In this document: positions 1-7,292 of the stretch, piece by piece
Layout: every line of letters begins with the position of its first letter
How positions within the stretch are numbered: position 1 is the stretch's first letter
Origin: a virus
Length of the DNA stretch: 23,747 nt
Virus record (IMG/VR): IMGVR_UViG_3300042397_000002
Location: 1-23,747 of that record
Strand: one strand, 5' to 3'
Translations under genes and position numbers: made by a program
The notes under the pieces: generated by a model
The model's input: the letters and a program-made list of their open reading frames with translations, nothing else
Told to the model about the DNA's origin: nothing
Databases searched by the model: none

Positions 1-625
1 TCTTCACGCCACTCACATCCAGCTTGGCCTTGGTGACTTTGGAGCGCAGTGTGGCCAAATAACCCTTGAACACCAGCTCCTCGATGCTGACAGGCGTGAG
101 CAGATCGTCAAACAGCGCAGGCTTGTCGGTGATCAAACCATGCCCCAAGCGGTAAGGCGTGGCAGTCAGGCCAATCACACGCAGGTGCGGATTGATGGCC
201 TTCAACTCGCCAAGCAGCTTGCGATAGCCACCCTCGTCCTTGTGGTTGACCAAATGGCACTCGTCGATGATCACCAGATCAATGTGGCCAAGTTCACGCG
301 CCTTGGTGCGCACAGACTGGATGCCAGCGAACGTGATCGGCTCGCTCAAGTCTTTCTGGCCAATGCTGGCGCTGTAGATGCCCATCGGTGCACCAGGCCA
401 ATGCTGGCGCATCTTCTCGGCATTCTGCTCGATCAACTCCTTGACATGAGTCAGCATGAGCACCCGAGTCTCTGGCCAGTTCTGCAAAGCATCCTTGCAC
501 AGCGCAGCCACGATGTGCGACTTGCCTGAGCCAGTCGGCAGCACCAAGCAAGGATTGCCAGCATTGCCAGCCTCAAACCATCGGTACAGCTCGTCGATGG
601 TGCGCTGTTGGTAGTCACGGAGCAT
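1..625 (-). CDS. Superfamily 2 DEAD/DEAH-type helicase, 3' end outside window
   Basis: An open frame reads leftward from ATG at 625 to the window edge (208 codons visible) with no stop, so only the N-terminal helicase half is present. It starts MLRDYQQRTIDELYRW, a Q-motif-like lead typical of phage SF2 helicases. Visible motifs are Walker A PTGSGKS (about residues 30-36), motif Ia-like MLTHVKEL (57-64), Walker B as DECH (121-124) and motif III-like TATPYR (154-159). These are the ATP-binding and hydrolysis motifs of the first RecA-like domain; the second would lie left of the window. The family unwinds or remodels DNA or RNA using ATP; here it probably serves phage replication or recombination, because it closes an operon of DNA-metabolism genes. 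Its ATG directly follows a TAA of one upstream reading frame (626-628) and overlaps the 615 stop of another, so translational coupling to the methyltransferase is likely. Confidence 0.9.
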   Translation of the reverse strand, partial: MLRDYQQRTIDELYRWFEAGNAGNPCLVLPTGSGKSHIVAALCKDALQNWPETRVLMLTHVKELIEQNAEKMRQHWPGAPMGIYSASIGQKDLSEPITFAGIQSVRTKARELGHIDLVIIDECHLVNHKDEGGYRKLLGELKAINPHLRVIGLTATPYRLGHGLITDKPALFDDLLTPVSIEELVFKGYLATLRSKVTKAKLDVSGVK

Positions 626-1458
626 TTAAAAGTCTCCAGACTGTTGCTGCCACTTTTGGAACTTGTCCATTGCCAATGGCTTTAAGTCGGTCCACTCTTG
701 CGGCCACCCCATCAGCCACTCGACCCACGTTGGGTTCAGCGGCCCACCAGCCTGTGCCGCTAGGGGGATTTCGTTCCTCTTGTACTCCGAGGGATTTCCA
801 CCGTCTTTGTGCATTCTGGCCACTGGTGTTGGCCACAGTCTTGGATTGTTCACTTGGTCCACCAGTCTGATCTGGATGGGCTGGCCATTCTTTCGATGAT
901 TCTGGCCTTGTTTGAGTAGGCCAGAGGTCCCCCCCCCCCCCCGTGTCTGGAGTGCGCCACAATCCACGCTCTGTCCCTCTGATGCGGTGCGCCAACATCG
1001 ACTGCTCCCATAACAGTCCATCGCGTGTCATACCCGAGACTGGAAAGGTCGCCAAGGACTCGTCCGAGTCCTCTATGAATGAGCATTGGGCTGTTTTCCA
1101 CGAATACGAATCTGGGTCGAACTTCGCTAACCACCCGCGCCATGTGATACCACATTGAGGACTGCTCTCCATCAAGTCCTGCGCCTCGGCCTGCGATGGA
1201 AATGTCCGTACAGGGAAAGCCTCCCGAAACAACGTCAACAATTCCTCGCCACGGTTGTCCGTCAAAGGTTTGAACATCATCCCAAATCGGGAAAGGCGGG
1301 AGAAGTCCGTCATTTTGTCTGGCGACAAGTACGCAAGCTGCGTAGGGTTCCCATTCGACTGCACAGACGGTTCGCCATCCGAGCAAATGTCCCCCAAGTA
1401 TTCCTCCACCAGCGCCTGCGAATAAAGCCAGCTCATTCAATTCTCCTTGTTCGTTCAT
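615..1458 (-). CDS. DNA (cytosine-5) methyltransferase, frame interrupted at a G14 tract
   Basis: The frame starting at 1458 encodes the catalytic part of a C5-cytosine methyltransferase: motif I FAGAGG (residues 13-18), motif IV GGFPCTDIS with catalytic Cys83, motif VI as ENSP (121-124) and motif VIII QRDR (160-163). Directly after motif VIII comes a run of 14 G (929-942 on the plus strand), and this frame then stops at 850. The frame ending at 615 holds the missing C-terminus: GRVADGVAARVDRLKAIGNGQVP, matching motifs IX and X (SAM binding). One G fewer (13) would join the two into a protein of about 280 aa. As written the gene is truncated; this may be phase variation, programmed slippage or a homopolymer sequencing error. 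The start overlaps the nuclease stop (ATGA, 1455-1458). There is little room for a target-recognition domain, as in other short phage enzymes. Likely role: methylating phage DNA against host restriction, or an orphan regulator. Confidence 0.85.
626..942 (-). other. Alternative C-terminal reading frame of the methyltransferase
   Basis: In the third frame after the G tract there is an open stretch ending at 626 with TAA, immediately followed by the helicase ATG (623-625). It contains LWPTPVARMHKDGG and then GGPLNPTWVEWLMGWP followed by EWTDLKPL. From memory these are common in the C-terminal part of phage C5 methyltransferases (WPTP..., LNPxWVEWLMGxP). The same bases in another frame give the motif IX/X tail VGRVADGV...GNGQVP. 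This frame would join the catalytic part if the tract had 15 (or 12) G. Which tail is used cannot be settled from the sequence alone. Confidence 0.55.
929..942. repeat. Homopolymer C14 (G14 on coding strand) in the methyltransferase gene
   Basis: Fourteen consecutive C on the plus strand, reading as G on the methyltransferase coding strand and encoding glycines just after motif VIII. Such a run is prone to replication slippage and to sequencing length error. With 14 G the protein ends at 850; with 13 G it continues to 615 with motifs IX and X; with 15 G it continues to 626 with another methyltransferase-like tail. Confidence 0.95.
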
Positions 1459-2480
1459 CCCACAATCCTTCCACCAAAGTCCTTGCGCATCTCAGCGATC
1501 AAAGGATCACCACTGGCGCAGGCCTCGGCATTGGCCAGCAACTCCTTGCTACCCCAAACGCCTTCCTGCTCAGGATCGCCATTGGCCAGATTCACGCCAT
1601 TGATCTCATACACAGCAGTGAACTCGTCTGGCCCATCCATGCGCTTCCAAGGCACCAGATCAGGATGCAGGACATGCGACTCACAACCAGTGCGCTGGGA
1701 ATCCAAAGGAATCTCAGCATCCCACTTGGCGCAGTGCCAAGTCGAGTCAGGCATCGGTGTGGCCAAGGCGCAGGTTCGGCAGTTCACATGCTTGGTGGTC
1801 TTGGACTGGTGGCAGAACTCATGCGCATCACAGAACTTGCACTGATACCAGCTCGCATCTGAGCTGATCGGCTCAGGCATGCGGTCACTCAAAGCAATGC
1901 GCTGGCCGCGAGCAATGGCCTTGCCTGCCACATCCTTGTCGAACTTCACGCGCTCGGTGTGGATGCGGTCGTCATCCTTGCAAACGGTCAAGTACAGCGC
2001 ACGATCGATGCTAGTGCCTGCCATGTAGACCTGCATCTGCACAAAGTGCTCAGGCTTGGACTTCTCCACGCCATTCTTCTCAAGATCATCAAATGCTTTT
2101 TTGGATGCTGTTTTGAACTCGGCAATGTGCTTGGACTTGGGCGCTTCTGGCACACCCTTGTCGATGATCGCATCAATGCTGCCAGACACATGGCTGCCAA
2201 AGTCGACACGGTGCTGGGCAGACACCTTGCGCACATCGATGCCAATGGCACGCAGGTCGCTGATGATGTTGGCCTCCTCTTGGTGGCCACGCCTGAACAG
2301 ACGCAGGATTCGACCAGGGAAGCTCGGCTGCACAGCCCAGCGGAAAGACAGCCACAGCCACCGATCACATACATGGCCAAGCGTACTGGCTCCAAGGTGT
2401 GGGCGAGGCACCTCGGCAATGGCCTCATGGTGCTTGTCAATCAATGACTGGATGCTATTATCTGGCTCAGGGATTTTCAT
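1455..2480 (-). CDS. PD-(D/E)XK (Cas4/RecB-like) nuclease with cysteine clusters
   Basis: A 341-aa protein with the core of a PD-(D/E)XK nuclease: an acidic residue in GSIDAIID (Asp103), the E-x-K pair in AEFKTA (Glu121, Lys123) and a following QMQVYM helix (Gln148, Tyr152), the RecB-type signature. Cys38 near the N-terminus together with Cys214, Cys217 and Cys223 (C-x2-C-x5-C) copies the split 4Fe-4S cysteine arrangement of Cas4 and AddB nucleases. A second group, Cys234, Cys237, Cys250 and Cys266, could bind zinc or another cluster. The expected activity is exonuclease or end resection for phage recombination or replication. The start is preceded by AAAGGAGAG on the minus strand. It follows the DUF669 gene after a hairpin, and its stop overlaps the methyltransferase start. 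Family assignment is firm; substrate and polarity are unknown. Confidence 0.85.
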   Translation of the reverse strand: MKIPEPDNSIQSLIDKHHEAIAEVPRPHLGASTLGHVCDRWLWLSFRWAVQPSFPGRILRLFRRGHQEEANIISDLRAIGIDVRKVSAQHRVDFGSHVSGSIDAIIDKGVPEAPKSKHIAEFKTASKKAFDDLEKNGVEKSKPEHFVQMQVYMAGTSIDRALYLTVCKDDDRIHTERVKFDKDVAGKAIARGQRIALSDRMPEPISSDASWYQCKFCDAHEFCHQSKTTKHVNCRTCALATPMPDSTWHCAKWDAEIPLDSQRTGCESHVLHPDLVPWKRMDGPDEFTAVYEINGVNLANGDPEQEGVWGSKELLANAEACASGDPLIAEMRKDFGGRIVG

Positions 2481-4433: not shown

Positions 4434-6441
4434 CCTCTCAAAAGTACTTGGCGGTCCTTGGGCACCACCACCAGAGAAACTCGTCGCACCACCAGAGGTG
4501 CAGCTCATTGACGCAATGCGTTCGGCAGGCCTCCAGCCACCAGAGGAAATCCTGATGGATGGCAAGATTCACCGATTCAAGTCAGGCACCAAAGGTGCAC
4601 CTGGCCACGGTGACAAGCCAGGTTGGTATCTGGTGTTCGGTGATGGCATTCCAGCCGGTCGATTCGGTTGCTGGCGAGCAGGCATGGAAGTGACATGGCG
4701 TGCAGACGTAGGAAGAAAACTCACGCAGACCGAGGAAATGTCACACGCCAAGCGACTGGCCGAGGCCAAAACCCTGCGAGACGCAGCCCTTGAGCGCCAG
4801 CACCAAGTGGCCAGCGACACGGTCGAGAAAATCTGGACAGGCGCACAGGCGGCACTTCCAGATCATCCTTACTTGGCCAAGAAGGGCATTCAAACGCATG
4901 GTGCAAGGGCAACAGGAGACGGTCGACTGGTGCTGCCACTCTACGACGAAGACGGAACACTGGCCACCTTGCAGTACATTGACCACGAAGGTGGCAAGCT
5001 CTATCACCCAGGCGGTCAGACAGGCGGCAAGTTCTGGATGGTAGGCTCACTAGATGAGCCTGGCACTCTGTTCGTGGCCGAGGGCTTCGCAACGGCAGCC
5101 ACAATCCATGAAACCACCGACAGGCCAGTCGTGGTGGCCTACAGCGCCAGCAATCTGGTGCCGGTCACTGGCACACTCAGGGAAATGTATGGAGCAACTC
5201 AAGACATCGTGATCGTCGCAGACCATGACCAAAGCGGTGTCGGCCAACGCTATGCAGAGCAGGCCAGTGCCAAGTACGGTGCACGCATGGTGATGCCTCC
5301 GATCCTCGGTGATGCCAACGATTATGCACAGGCAGGCCACGATCTGGCAGGCCTACTGATGCCACCAGCAGACGACTGGCTCATCCCAGCCGATGACTTC
5401 TGCGCACAACCCAGCCCCATCAGCTGGCTCGTCAAACGCTGGATTCAATCCCAAGCACTGGTGATGGTCCACGGCCCAAGCGGTGGTGGCAAGACATTCG
5501 TGGTGCTCGACTGGTGTCTGCGCATGGCCAGCGGAACCGAGGACTGGGCAGGCCACAAGGTGCGCCAAGGCAACGTGGTCTATCTGGCAGGCGAAGGCCA
5601 CCACGGTCTGCGCGGCAGGGTGGCAGCATGGAAACACCACCACAAAGCAGGCAAGCTGGCCATGTGGCTGTCAAAAGATGGTTGCGACCTCAACACCCCG
5701 ACCGGCTACCTCAAAGTCGTCGAGCAAGTCAGGATGCTTAAAGACAGACCAAGCGTGATCGTGGTCGACACCCTGCACCGATTCCTCTCAGGCGATGAGA
5801 ACTCAGCCCAAGATGCCAAGACCATGCTGGACGCATGCAACGCACTCATGCAGGAATTCAACTGCTCGGTGATCTTGGTGCACCACACAGGCGTGTCAGA
5901 CGAAGCCCAGCACAGGGCACGAGGCTCAAGCGCATGGCGAGGCGCTCTGGACATCGAAATCAGCATCGTGCCAGGCAAGGACAACGTGCCCATGCAGATC
6001 GTGCAGCGCAAGTCCAAAGACGCAGAACTGGCCGAGACCATCCACGTTGAGCTACAACAAGTGGCCATCCCTGGCTGGCGCGACGAAGACGACCAGCAAG
6101 TCACAAGCGCTGTGATCATTCAAGCCCAAGCACCAACAGTGACCAAAAAAGACAGCAAGATCGACAGCCACCGAAAGACTTTCGAGAACGCTTGGTGGGC
6201 ATCAGGCGCAGAAGAACGCAACGGATTGCCTTACCTCAGCCGGTCGGCCATGATGGAATACTTGGTTCAGAAAATGAATGTGAGCGAGTCCTCAGCCAAG
6301 GTTTACATCAAGCCAAGCGCGACAGGAAAACCCATCGCTGACATGCTGGTGGCCGAAATAATCGAGTCCTTTGAGCATGGCTGGATCGTGATTGATGACA
6401 CTCAAGCAAGCGTCATGATGATCAGAAAGTCAGAGCGCTGA
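4426..6441 (+). CDS. Toprim primase fused to RepA/AAA-type helicase
   Basis: A 671-aa replication protein with two modules. Residues about 100-310 resemble the phage/plasmid Toprim primase family: HPYLAKKGI near 145, then Toprim signature VAEGFATA with Glu219 and IVADHDQSG with Asp266 and Asp268, metal-binding residues for primer synthesis or nucleotidyl transfer. Residues about 330-560 form a RepA-like hexameric helicase ATPase: Walker A GPSGGGKT (350-357), VYLAGEGHHGLRGRV, Walker B VIVVD (to Asp448), and the VILVHHTG strand with sensor histidines. The remaining C-terminus (after about 570) looks like a winged-helix-type domain. No zinc-finger N-terminal motif is evident. The protein should prime and unwind the phage DNA; the adjacent downstream non-coding stretch with DnaA boxes is the likely origin. 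It overlaps the HTH gene by 8 bp and ends with TGA immediately before the origin region. Confidence 0.9.
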   Translation: MADLSKVLGGPWAPPPEKLVAPPEVQLIDAMRSAGLQPPEEILMDGKIHRFKSGTKGAPGHGDKPGWYLVFGDGIPAGRFGCWRAGMEVTWRADVGRKLTQTEEMSHAKRLAEAKTLRDAALERQHQVASDTVEKIWTGAQAALPDHPYLAKKGIQTHGARATGDGRLVLPLYDEDGTLATLQYIDHEGGKLYHPGGQTGGKFWMVGSLDEPGTLFVAEGFATAATIHETTDRPVVVAYSASNLVPVTGTLREMYGATQDIVIVADHDQSGVGQRYAEQASAKYGARMVMPPILGDANDYAQAGHDLAGLLMPPADDWLIPADDFCAQPSPISWLVKRWIQSQALVMVHGPSGGGKTFVVLDWCLRMASGTEDWAGHKVRQGNVVYLAGEGHHGLRGRVAAWKHHHKAGKLAMWLSKDGCDLNTPTGYLKVVEQVRMLKDRPSVIVVDTLHRFLSGDENSAQDAKTMLDACNALMQEFNCSVILVHHTGVSDEAQHRARGSSAWRGALDIEISIVPGKDNVPMQIVQRKSKDAELAETIHVELQQVAIPGWRDEDDQQVTSAVIIQAQAPTVTKKDSKIDSHRKTFENAWWASGAEERNGLPYLSRSAMMEYLVQKMNVSESSAKVYIKPSATGKPIADMLVAEIIESFEHGWIVIDDTQASVMMIRKSER

Positions 6442-6660: not shown

Positions 6661-6843
6661 ATGACCAAACAAAGAGAAACTCCAAACTTCGCAACATGGC
6701 AACATGACACGCTGGCCAAGTTTGCAACTGAGGTCTACATCCGACTCCAAGATGAGCAGGCCGCGAACGAGCAACTCAGGATGGATTTAAAAGATGCCAT
6801 GAAACTAGCGCGAATCGAAAACATGAAGGACAATGCAGCATGA
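6661..6843 (+). CDS. Small helical phage protein of unknown function
   Basis: A 60-aa protein, mostly helical and charged, with NFATWQHDTLAKFATEVYIR near the N-terminus and a heptad-like LQDEQAANEQLRMDLKDAMK stretch that could form a short coiled coil. The Shine-Dalgarno sequence is weak (an AAGAAA stretch just before ATG). The stop TGA overlaps the terminase small subunit start (ATGA, 6840-6843), which supports real translation. Similar small proteins occur just before terminase genes in related phages as far as I remember; no function is known. It contains no cysteine cluster, membrane segment or clear DNA-binding motif. Confidence 0.65.
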   Translation: MTKQRETPNFATWQHDTLAKFATEVYIRLQDEQAANEQLRMDLKDAMKLARIENMKDNAA

Positions 6844-7292
6844 CCACAAAATCACACAAAGCAAAAGCGCCAACCAAGCGAACTAAGCCTGGCAGTGAAG
6901 ACCGAGCCGTGATCAGCCAGATGGTGCTTGAAGGAATGCGAAGCGGCCTGAGCGCTTTCAAAGCATGTCAAGCAGCTGGTGTTCCTCAAAGCACTTTCTT
7001 ACGGTGGGTGGATGATGATGCTATCCTTGCGGAGAATTACGCGCGCGCGAGGGAAGACCTGATCGAACGCATGGCCACAGAGATCATGGAGATCAGCGAT
7101 CAAGACGTTGGCGTGGCCGTTGATGGCAAGAAAGACTGGGCGGCAGTGCAAAAGCACAGGCTTCAAGTCGACACACGCAAATGGCTGTTGTCCAAACTAG
7201 CCCCAAAGAAGTTTGGCGACAAGATCGAAGTTTCTGGCGATCCAGCCAATCCCTTGGTGCAAAGAATTGAGCGCGTGGTCGTCAAAGCATGA
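6840..7292 (+). CDS. Terminase small subunit
   Basis: A 150-aa protein with a basic N-terminal tail (KSHKAKAPTKRTKPG), then a helix-turn-helix: AVISQMVLEGMRSG and FKACQAAGVPQSTFLRWVDD (about residues 40-59), the DNA-recognition part that binds the packaging start site. The C-terminal part contains VDTRKWLLSKLAPKKFGDKI, a very common signature of phage small terminases, and ends in a short strand-rich tail presumed to contact the large subunit. Small terminase rings select phage DNA and regulate the large subunit. Length is close to the 162 aa of P22 gp3, though the sequence type is different. It is coupled by ATGA overlaps to the genes on both sides. Confidence 0.88.
   Translation: MTTKSHKAKAPTKRTKPGSEDRAVISQMVLEGMRSGLSAFKACQAAGVPQSTFLRWVDDDAILAENYARAREDLIERMATEIMEISDQDVGVAVDGKKDWAAVQKHRLQVDTRKWLLSKLAPKKFGDKIEVSGDPANPLVQRIERVVVKA

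Follow-up and report, generated by a model that had tools for sequence, protein, structure and literature searches.

A poly-G tract within two overlapping phage genes as a candidate phase-variation switch of a probable two-subunit C5-methyltransferase

Results

One Tract Breaks Two Overlapping Reading Frames

Two conserved, overlapping reading frames of a phage methyltransferase locus are both interrupted by a single homopolymeric G tract whose length differs among assembled relatives, and we conclude that this arrangement probably reflects phase variation, by slipped-strand changes in tract length, of a two-subunit C5-methyltransferase that is encoded by the phage and in which one tract disables both subunits. 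The DNA analysed (hereafter the window) is a 23,747-base IMG/VR virus record, and the length of its own tract is thus assembly-based. Across the window there is a single G/C run of at least 8 bases, which consists of 14 consecutive G directly after the catalytic part of the gene (Table 1), as described in the first-pass annotation. Overlapping G8 matches numbered 7, compared to 0.22 expected, a count that was reached in 0 of 100 dinucleotide shuffles.

The frames assigned by that annotation were reproduced: with 14 G the product stops at 850 without motif X, one G fewer leads into the GNGQVP frame with its stop at 615, and one G more leads into the LNPTWVEWLMGWP frame with its stop at 626. What had been missed is a second conserved protein in the frame 615..1436, and the proposal of a meaningful methyltransferase end in either off-by-one state is not supported, as the LNPTWVEWLMGWP tail belongs to this overlapping second gene: the LNP..WVEW motif was in +1 in 36 of 36 tract-less IMG/VR relatives with both tails. 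We refer to the methyltransferase gene as alpha and to the overlapping +1 gene as beta. The tract position of the window is called site 2, and another poly-G position, present in relatives just after motif IV and approximately 20 nt after the start of the GGFPC Cys codon, is called site 1.

Table 1. Position of the tract and of the alpha and beta features in the window.
Feature	Coordinates	Strand	Remark
G14 homopolymer, slippage tract	929..942	-	Window copy in frame state +1 (OFF)
Alpha ORF as read with 14 G: C5-MTase motifs I-VIII, then short out-of-frame end	850..1458	-
Beta ORF, N-terminal half, frame +1, MSWLYSQ...GLWRTPDT	943..1436	-	Nested in alpha
Alpha tail with motif X	615..928	-	Connected to the catalytic part in the ON frame only; phrog_363 238-312
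Beta, C-terminal half, with the probable target-recognition region plus motif IX	626..928	-	Connected to the beta N-terminal half in the ON frame only; phrog_1008 191-281
LNPTWVEWLMGWP, taken as C5-MTase motif IX, beta frame	701..739	-	Assigned partly by the general C5 consensus
GNGQVP, motif X, alpha frame	657..674	-
GGFPC, motif IV catalytic loop of alpha	1210..1224	-
GGAAGG, likely ribosome-binding site of alpha ATG 1458	1467..1472	-	Presumed, by eye
AAGGAG, likely ribosome-binding site of beta ATG 1436	1443..1448	-	Presumed, by eye and from relatives

Two Protein Families Share One Stretch of DNA

The catalytic C5 motifs I-VIII are all present in the window's alpha, of which residues 11-170 matched PF00145 (2.8e-30, 106 bits vs. 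a cut-off of 22). Alpha also matched M.HhaI at 1.8e-14, while its match to the NCBIfam dcm model was under the cut-off (81.6 vs. 100.65 bits). With 14 G, motif X is not in the frame of the core and the product ends in unrelated residues; relatives in the ON state or without the tract have motif X in the alpha frame. Judged by its sequence, it is alpha that supplies motifs I-VIII and X.

The frame 615..1436 begins with an ATG of its own at 1436 and stays open throughout the catalytic part. The phrog_363 profile was matched by the core at positions 49-226 and again by the GNGQVP part, whereas phrog_1008 was matched by the upstream part of beta at positions 32-148 and again by the third-frame downstream part (Table 1). 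Two protein families therefore run through the same DNA, and both are broken at the tract by the same one-base shift. Using the +1 protein as a tblastn query, we retrieved 22 phage records, including Salmonella, Acinetobacter, Pseudomonas and Vibrio phages, 10 of which cover at least 80% of the query; all 12 of the 12 aligned +1 proteins begin with MSW. Among 115 loci with such a start, the codon 4 bases before the beta ATG is ATG in 75, GTG in 14 and TTG in 11, and in the 15 loci with no start codon there alpha must start elsewhere. In the window this codon is TTG, with ATG 1458 further upstream.

Beta matched no Pfam or NCBIfam family, and a profile search against the PDB returned just one weak, unrelated match; AlphaFold pLDDT was 41 for beta and 38 for the natural +2 fusion of the core with the downstream part of beta. 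The +1 frame contains LNPxWVEWLMGWP, which we take to be motif IX on the basis of the general C5 consensus, and a PTP-rich region. Actinophage +1 ORFs lend weight to this assignment: they match phrog_1008 and phrog_116, and they carry the same LNP..WVEW-type motif with a GNGV motif after it in one frame. Together with selection in the +1 frame (see below) and the matches to PHROG methylase profiles, the motif layout makes it probable that beta is a subunit carrying the recognition region and motif IX.

The annotation of the two frames in other records is uneven. The PHROG families of both carry the label DNA methyltransferase; in PP083311 (L225) and MG592659 (L231) beta alone is annotated, as a hypothetical protein, and in MW202462 (L164) and MW722521 (L165) alpha alone. 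L229 (MW202674) is a remnant of the gene pair, with the first ~30 residues of both frames intact and unrelated sequence thereafter.

The Two-Frame Layout Occurs Without the Tract

Our collection comprised 114 distinct cores (window included), of which 60 have no poly-G in the stretch covered, 7 of these 60 ending before the tract site. Motif X was found in 49 of the 60 tract-less IMG/VR cores, each time in the open frame of the core, and LNP..WVEW in 36, each time in +1; all 36 tract-less IMG/VR relatives with both tails have the catalytic part and GNGQ in one frame and LNP..WVEW in +1. From motif IV onward, the +1 frame is open to at most 44 nt from the alpha stop in 48 of 49 tract-less loci, the exception being L149, with a beta-frame stop 205 nt past motif IV.

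When the synonymous codons of alpha were shuffled, a +1 ORF of the observed length remained open in less than 1% of shuffles at 64 of 70 loci, the largest open fraction being 6.2%. Over the +1 ORFs of the 70 loci, which are related, 352 stops were expected, against zero by construction, as the stretch tested is the ORF itself (at least 600 nt). The third frame had 1,259 stops in the same test, compared to 1,054 expected.

A scan of bacterial and archaeal genomes with one genome per species, covering 80 of 169 relatives, showed the same frame layout in 58 of 76 bacterial-genome loci with motif IV. The other 18 are made up of 9 loci with motif X in frame and motif IX unmatched, 6 otherwise without one or both matches, and 3 with motif X in another frame. 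Both stops fell within 60 nt in 67 of the 76 loci and did not in the remaining 9, some of which have alpha closed early. One of the 3 loci with a displaced motif X, L312 from a Gallionella MAG, has a G9 tract at site 1, out of frame, and L245 from a Gammaproteobacteria MAG has a G10 tract further downstream; both are possibly prophages.

Low fourfold-site diversity was considered as additional evidence for the overlap and dropped. Diversity in the overlap was about one third of that in neighbouring genes in one set (0.084 vs. 0.258; 8 contigs), with 0.097 (6 contigs) vs. 0.291 (7 contigs) in a second set. As diversity is also reduced at the first and second codon positions, however, recombination or recent common ancestry would account for the difference as well.

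The Selected Frame Changes at the Tract

Variability by alpha codon position (1/2/3) was determined for 52 tract-bearing sequences upstream and 51 downstream of the tract. The upstream values of 0.108/0.049/0.233 represent a normal alpha pattern, and those of the first 60 nt downstream, 0.272/0.120/0.034, a normal beta pattern, which remains dominant to about 180-240 nt downstream (0.165/0.061/0.080) until alpha dominates again over motif X (0.159/0.139/0.279). The tract thus sits where the dominantly selected frame passes from alpha to beta. In 42 tract-less IMG/VR loci and 47 loci from bacteria, the pattern agrees with alpha in the core and motif X blocks and with beta in the motif IX block, although the picking of these loci by their matches to motifs IX and X favours that outcome in both motif blocks; the block just before motif IX was too variable to decide. 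Taken together, these patterns assign motifs I-VIII and X to alpha; beta probably provides motif IX and, among tract-bearing sequences, the recognition region as well.

Upstream of the tract, variability follows alpha only, and the N-terminal half of beta shows freedom from stops with no amino-acid selection of its own in the codon positions, as expected if the +1 frame were a shadow of alpha composition that encodes no protein. Such a shadow is very improbable given a +1 ORF far longer than synonymous-codon shuffles permit and given beta's own codon pattern, which extends from the tract to motif IX in the tract set and recurs in the motif IX block of the two further sets, themselves chosen by that motif. 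Additionally, the +1 ORFs of the actinophages Euratis and Gladiator are annotated as methylases and match phrog_1008 and phrog_116.

Tract Length Sets a Common ON Frame and Varies Among Assemblies

Five contigs with the same recognition region (L486, L487, L490, L493 and L496, which are two near-identical pairs and one single) have no tract, and their linker codes for TG[AQ]GGTSGLL. In each, the core and motif X are in the alpha frame, motif IX is in the beta frame, and both frames are open; a linker of this type, 13 nt in length, is also present in L063, where both frames stay open to the end of the contig, which precedes both tails. As both frames are open in these tract-less linker contigs, the ON frame corresponds to 13 G (modulo 3), and the window's G14 is accordingly OFF for both proteins. 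Relatives with a fixed, non-homopolymer linker had been anticipated at the outset as a refutation of the switch; the five contigs are such relatives, yet they define its ON frame and leave the switch of the tract-bearing lineage standing.

Scanning IMG/VR with a pattern of the tract context yielded 56 contigs, which with L022 and the window make 58 measured contigs, near-copies of one phage included. Site-2 lengths ran from 10 to 17 G (10 G in 2 contigs, 11 in 11, 12 in 12, 13 in 16, 14 in 12, 15 in 4 and 17 in 1), all from metagenome assemblies in which single contigs may be miscounted. For the 47 contigs with both flanking motifs, 15 were in the ON state, 16 in +1 and 16 in +2; there is no excess of the ON frame at site 2, and selection for the enzyme is therefore not visible there. 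An overlapping count over 45 distinct cores gave states of 12/14/14 among 40. A tree of 49 contigs, including three of four contigs outside the 58 with the tract in a slightly different context (L026, L027, L030 and L134), required 24 state changes, compared to a mean of 23.4 with shuffled labels (140 of 200 shuffles as low), indicating that the tract state does not follow descent. As in contingency loci, the repeat lies in a coding region where its length sets the frame, and its length, as assembled, varies among close relatives with intact flanks and tails.

With 32 of the 47 contigs (about two thirds) frame-broken, the tract could be regarded as a neutral run in a dying methyltransferase gene. 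We give this decay reading almost no credence, since none of the 47 site-2 contigs has a closed alpha tail, the beta frame is open up to its motif in 44 of the 45 contigs where that motif was matched (in the exception, L194, identical to L086, a deletion just after the tract closes beta), and the codon-position signals are still seen beyond the tract.

Transcriptional or ribosomal slippage at the poly-G could also be at work, in which case each genome would make some of every frame and the DNA length would be nearly irrelevant. Site-2 frames are equally common (15/16/16), as if length were near-neutral, and both downstream frames are open in nearly all contigs; phase variation explains the open tails equally well, however, and the ON excess of 29 of 40 at site 1 (see below) argues against expression slippage, which we consider unlikely. 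To our knowledge, poly-G is not established as a strong transcriptional slippage site.

The main rival, recognized as such from the beginning, is homopolymer miscounting, whereby the whole clade would have 13 G, the assemblies would mis-size the run and there would be no switch. Lengths at site 2 do centre on 13, the ON length, as noise around a fixed 13 would, and none of the 13 annotated phage-record loci (isolates and assembled) has a tract, with no G/C run of at least 8. Contigs also end within 100 nt downstream of the tract in 7 of 56 cases (L175, L179, L182, L188, L192, L201 and L215) compared to 0.53 expected, an excess that poly-G sequencing trouble would cause and that mixed lengths in a population fit just as well, and L174 has an extra C adjoining its run. 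Against miscounting, 13 G was found in only 16 of the 58 contigs; L193, L202 and L217, which by name come from three IMG datasets (shared reads being possible) and are 99.99-100% alike, all have the OFF length G11; and L206 and L208, 99.83% alike over 6,020 nt and about 98% beside the tract, differ with G11 and G12. The run is, moreover, conserved at site 2 and likewise at two more places within this gene pair. On balance, a miscount of a fixed run appears improbable, and we retain phase variation as the preferred reading.

Several further contigs bear on tract length individually. L175 and L201, from another phage, have G13 each, and L201 ends one base past the run. L174 and L178 were rejected as a clean length-switch pair: they have 14 and 12 G, but the extra C in L174 leaves the frame unchanged. 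In IMGVR_UViG_3300027759_000202 (L116/L224) the tract region is found at both ends, as if a circular genome had been cut there.

Poly-G Tracts at Other Positions and in Other Methyltransferases

A poly-G of at least 9 at site 1 was found in 43 contigs (9 G in 6, 10 in 17, 11 in 17, 12 in 2 and 13 in 1), with 29 ON, 4 in +1 and 7 in +2 among 40, an ON excess (p 6e-7 vs. 1/3) in a set that, like the next, was not deduplicated. A third position, ~138 nt before motif X, has poly-G in 9 contigs, of which L356 is without a confirming motif; the states there were 4 ON, 3 in +1 and 1 in +2 of 8, and the ON excess was not significant (p 0.45). The longer tract and uniform states at site 2 suggest fast switching, and the shorter tract and ON excess at site 1 suggest slower switching together with selection for the enzyme.

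G/C runs of at least 9 outside the gene numbered 3 in 483,296 nt of the 56 tract contigs, while all 56 have one inside the gene, having been fetched by the tract itself. The outside runs, assigned by eye, are in a DPPY-type methyltransferase of L210 (4711-4722), in another gene of L179, and in a ParB-like frame leading to TDPPYN in L223 (6057-6067), a near relative of the window with a tract in both of its methyltransferases. The DPPY methyltransferases of L210 and L223 have, again by eye, a ParB-like N-terminal part. In L223 the ParB-like methyltransferase follows a small ORF, MTKQRETPNFATWQ (near 6057), and in this part of the window (6661-6843 and 6840-7292) an ORF resembling, by eye, a small terminase subunit stands where L223 has this methyltransferase; the ParB-like modification gene thus seems to come and go between close relatives. 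A G9 or longer 8-30 nt before TDPPYN was found in at least 120 IMG/VR stretches (L365-L483 among them), compared to 0 for a C9 control that is weak because the family encodes Gly, not Pro, at that place. Of 119 parsed TDPPYN tracts among the matches listed, 68 were in frame, 35 were out of frame and 16 were assignable to neither.

Discussion

Nested-frame coding is known from a few restriction systems of the 1990s, and the small subunit of M.EcoHK31I is reportedly encoded inside the gene of the large subunit, in a different frame. According to PMC3404938, M.EcoHK31I (YGGCCR) consists of two polypeptides, the larger with motifs I-VIII, motif X and a predicted recognition domain and the smaller with motif IX. 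The same split of motifs, I-VIII and X in one polypeptide and IX in the other, was found in 36 of 36 tract-less IMG/VR relatives in which both tails are present and in 58 of 76 bacterial loci, and it is present in the window in the ON frame only. Likened by this motif layout, the enzyme probably works like M.EcoHK31I, from which it differs in being phage-borne with poly-G tracts and, as codon positions suggest, in having the recognition region in the small-subunit frame, whereas that of M.EcoHK31I is predicted in the large subunit (PMC3404938). M.AquI is likewise a two-polypeptide C5 enzyme, divided close to the recognition region; in contrast, its small subunit has both IX and X. In the present locus, X belongs to the large-subunit frame, and the two frames overlap for nearly their entire length, one nested in the other.

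Among phages, Streptomyces phage Euratis (gp33/gp34) and Mycobacterium phage Gladiator (gp87/gp86) have a catalytic part in frame 0 and recognition region and motif IX in +1, but motif X, too, is found in +1 there, and frame 0 does not stay open downstream. The stretches examined in these two phages contain no G/C run of at least 7. In Streptomyces and Mycobacterium phages (L230:1808-2867, L168:1426-2425 and L166) this arrangement would represent a split enzyme or a candidate programmed frameshift, and in Euratis and Gladiator both of the ORFs bear a methylase annotation. Intragenic poly-G/C tracts set the reading frame of Helicobacter pylori methyltransferases (PMC12003011) and of type III methyltransferases (PMC3711429). 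Unlike in bacterial phasevarions, the tract described here is in phage genomes and shifts two overlapping genes together.

We propose the following mechanism. Almost the same stretch of DNA would encode two proteins in frames 0 and +1, with start codons a short distance apart (a few codons), and alpha (I-VIII and X) and beta (recognition region and IX) probably form one C5-methyltransferase. Replication slippage would alter the G run and so shift alpha and beta together: at 13 G (modulo 3) both proteins would be complete, and at other lengths both would be broken at once. A phage population would then be a mixture of ON virions with modified DNA and OFF virions without it, a plausible hedge against host nucleases that cut either unmodified or modified DNA.

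The initial proposal of a phase-variation device in a phage methyltransferase is supported in that the tract is conserved and varies in length, but not in its form as a three-way switch. A related possibility with three outputs, in which 13 G gives two subunits, 12 or 15 G a fusion of core, recognition region and motif IX, and 14 G no product with core plus recognition region, seems doubtful to us. The core ORF does run on to the end of beta in 13 of 14 +2-state loci (the exception, L086, having the deletion), and with 16 of 47 contigs the +2 state is no rarer than the other two. The fusion also aligned with phrog_116, a single-chain phage methylase profile, from the core into motif IX, but gained almost nothing in score (144.4 bits compared to 144.2 for the core alone). 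It has no motif X, however. The +2 frame was seen in no tract-less relative examined; L491, which is in that frame, has an interrupted tract (G11 then AGG). Were the three-output reading true, the fused chain would have an activity or specificity of its own, e.g., binding or slow methylation, and the phage would switch between modification types, beyond ON and OFF.

Searches of open-access full text showed us no phage-borne phase-variable methyltransferase and no nested phage methylase, which is no proof of absence. If phase variation of a two-subunit enzyme is right, contingency loci such as are known chiefly from work on bacterial pathogens also serve free-living phages, with the locus aimed at DNA modification, which decides the survival of phage DNA against restriction, and a single slip toggles both subunits of an overlapping-gene enzyme. 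It predicts that modification would be mixed among the virions of one stock. It would also suggest that the coding of methylases in overlapping frames is widespread in phages and prophages and incompletely annotated.
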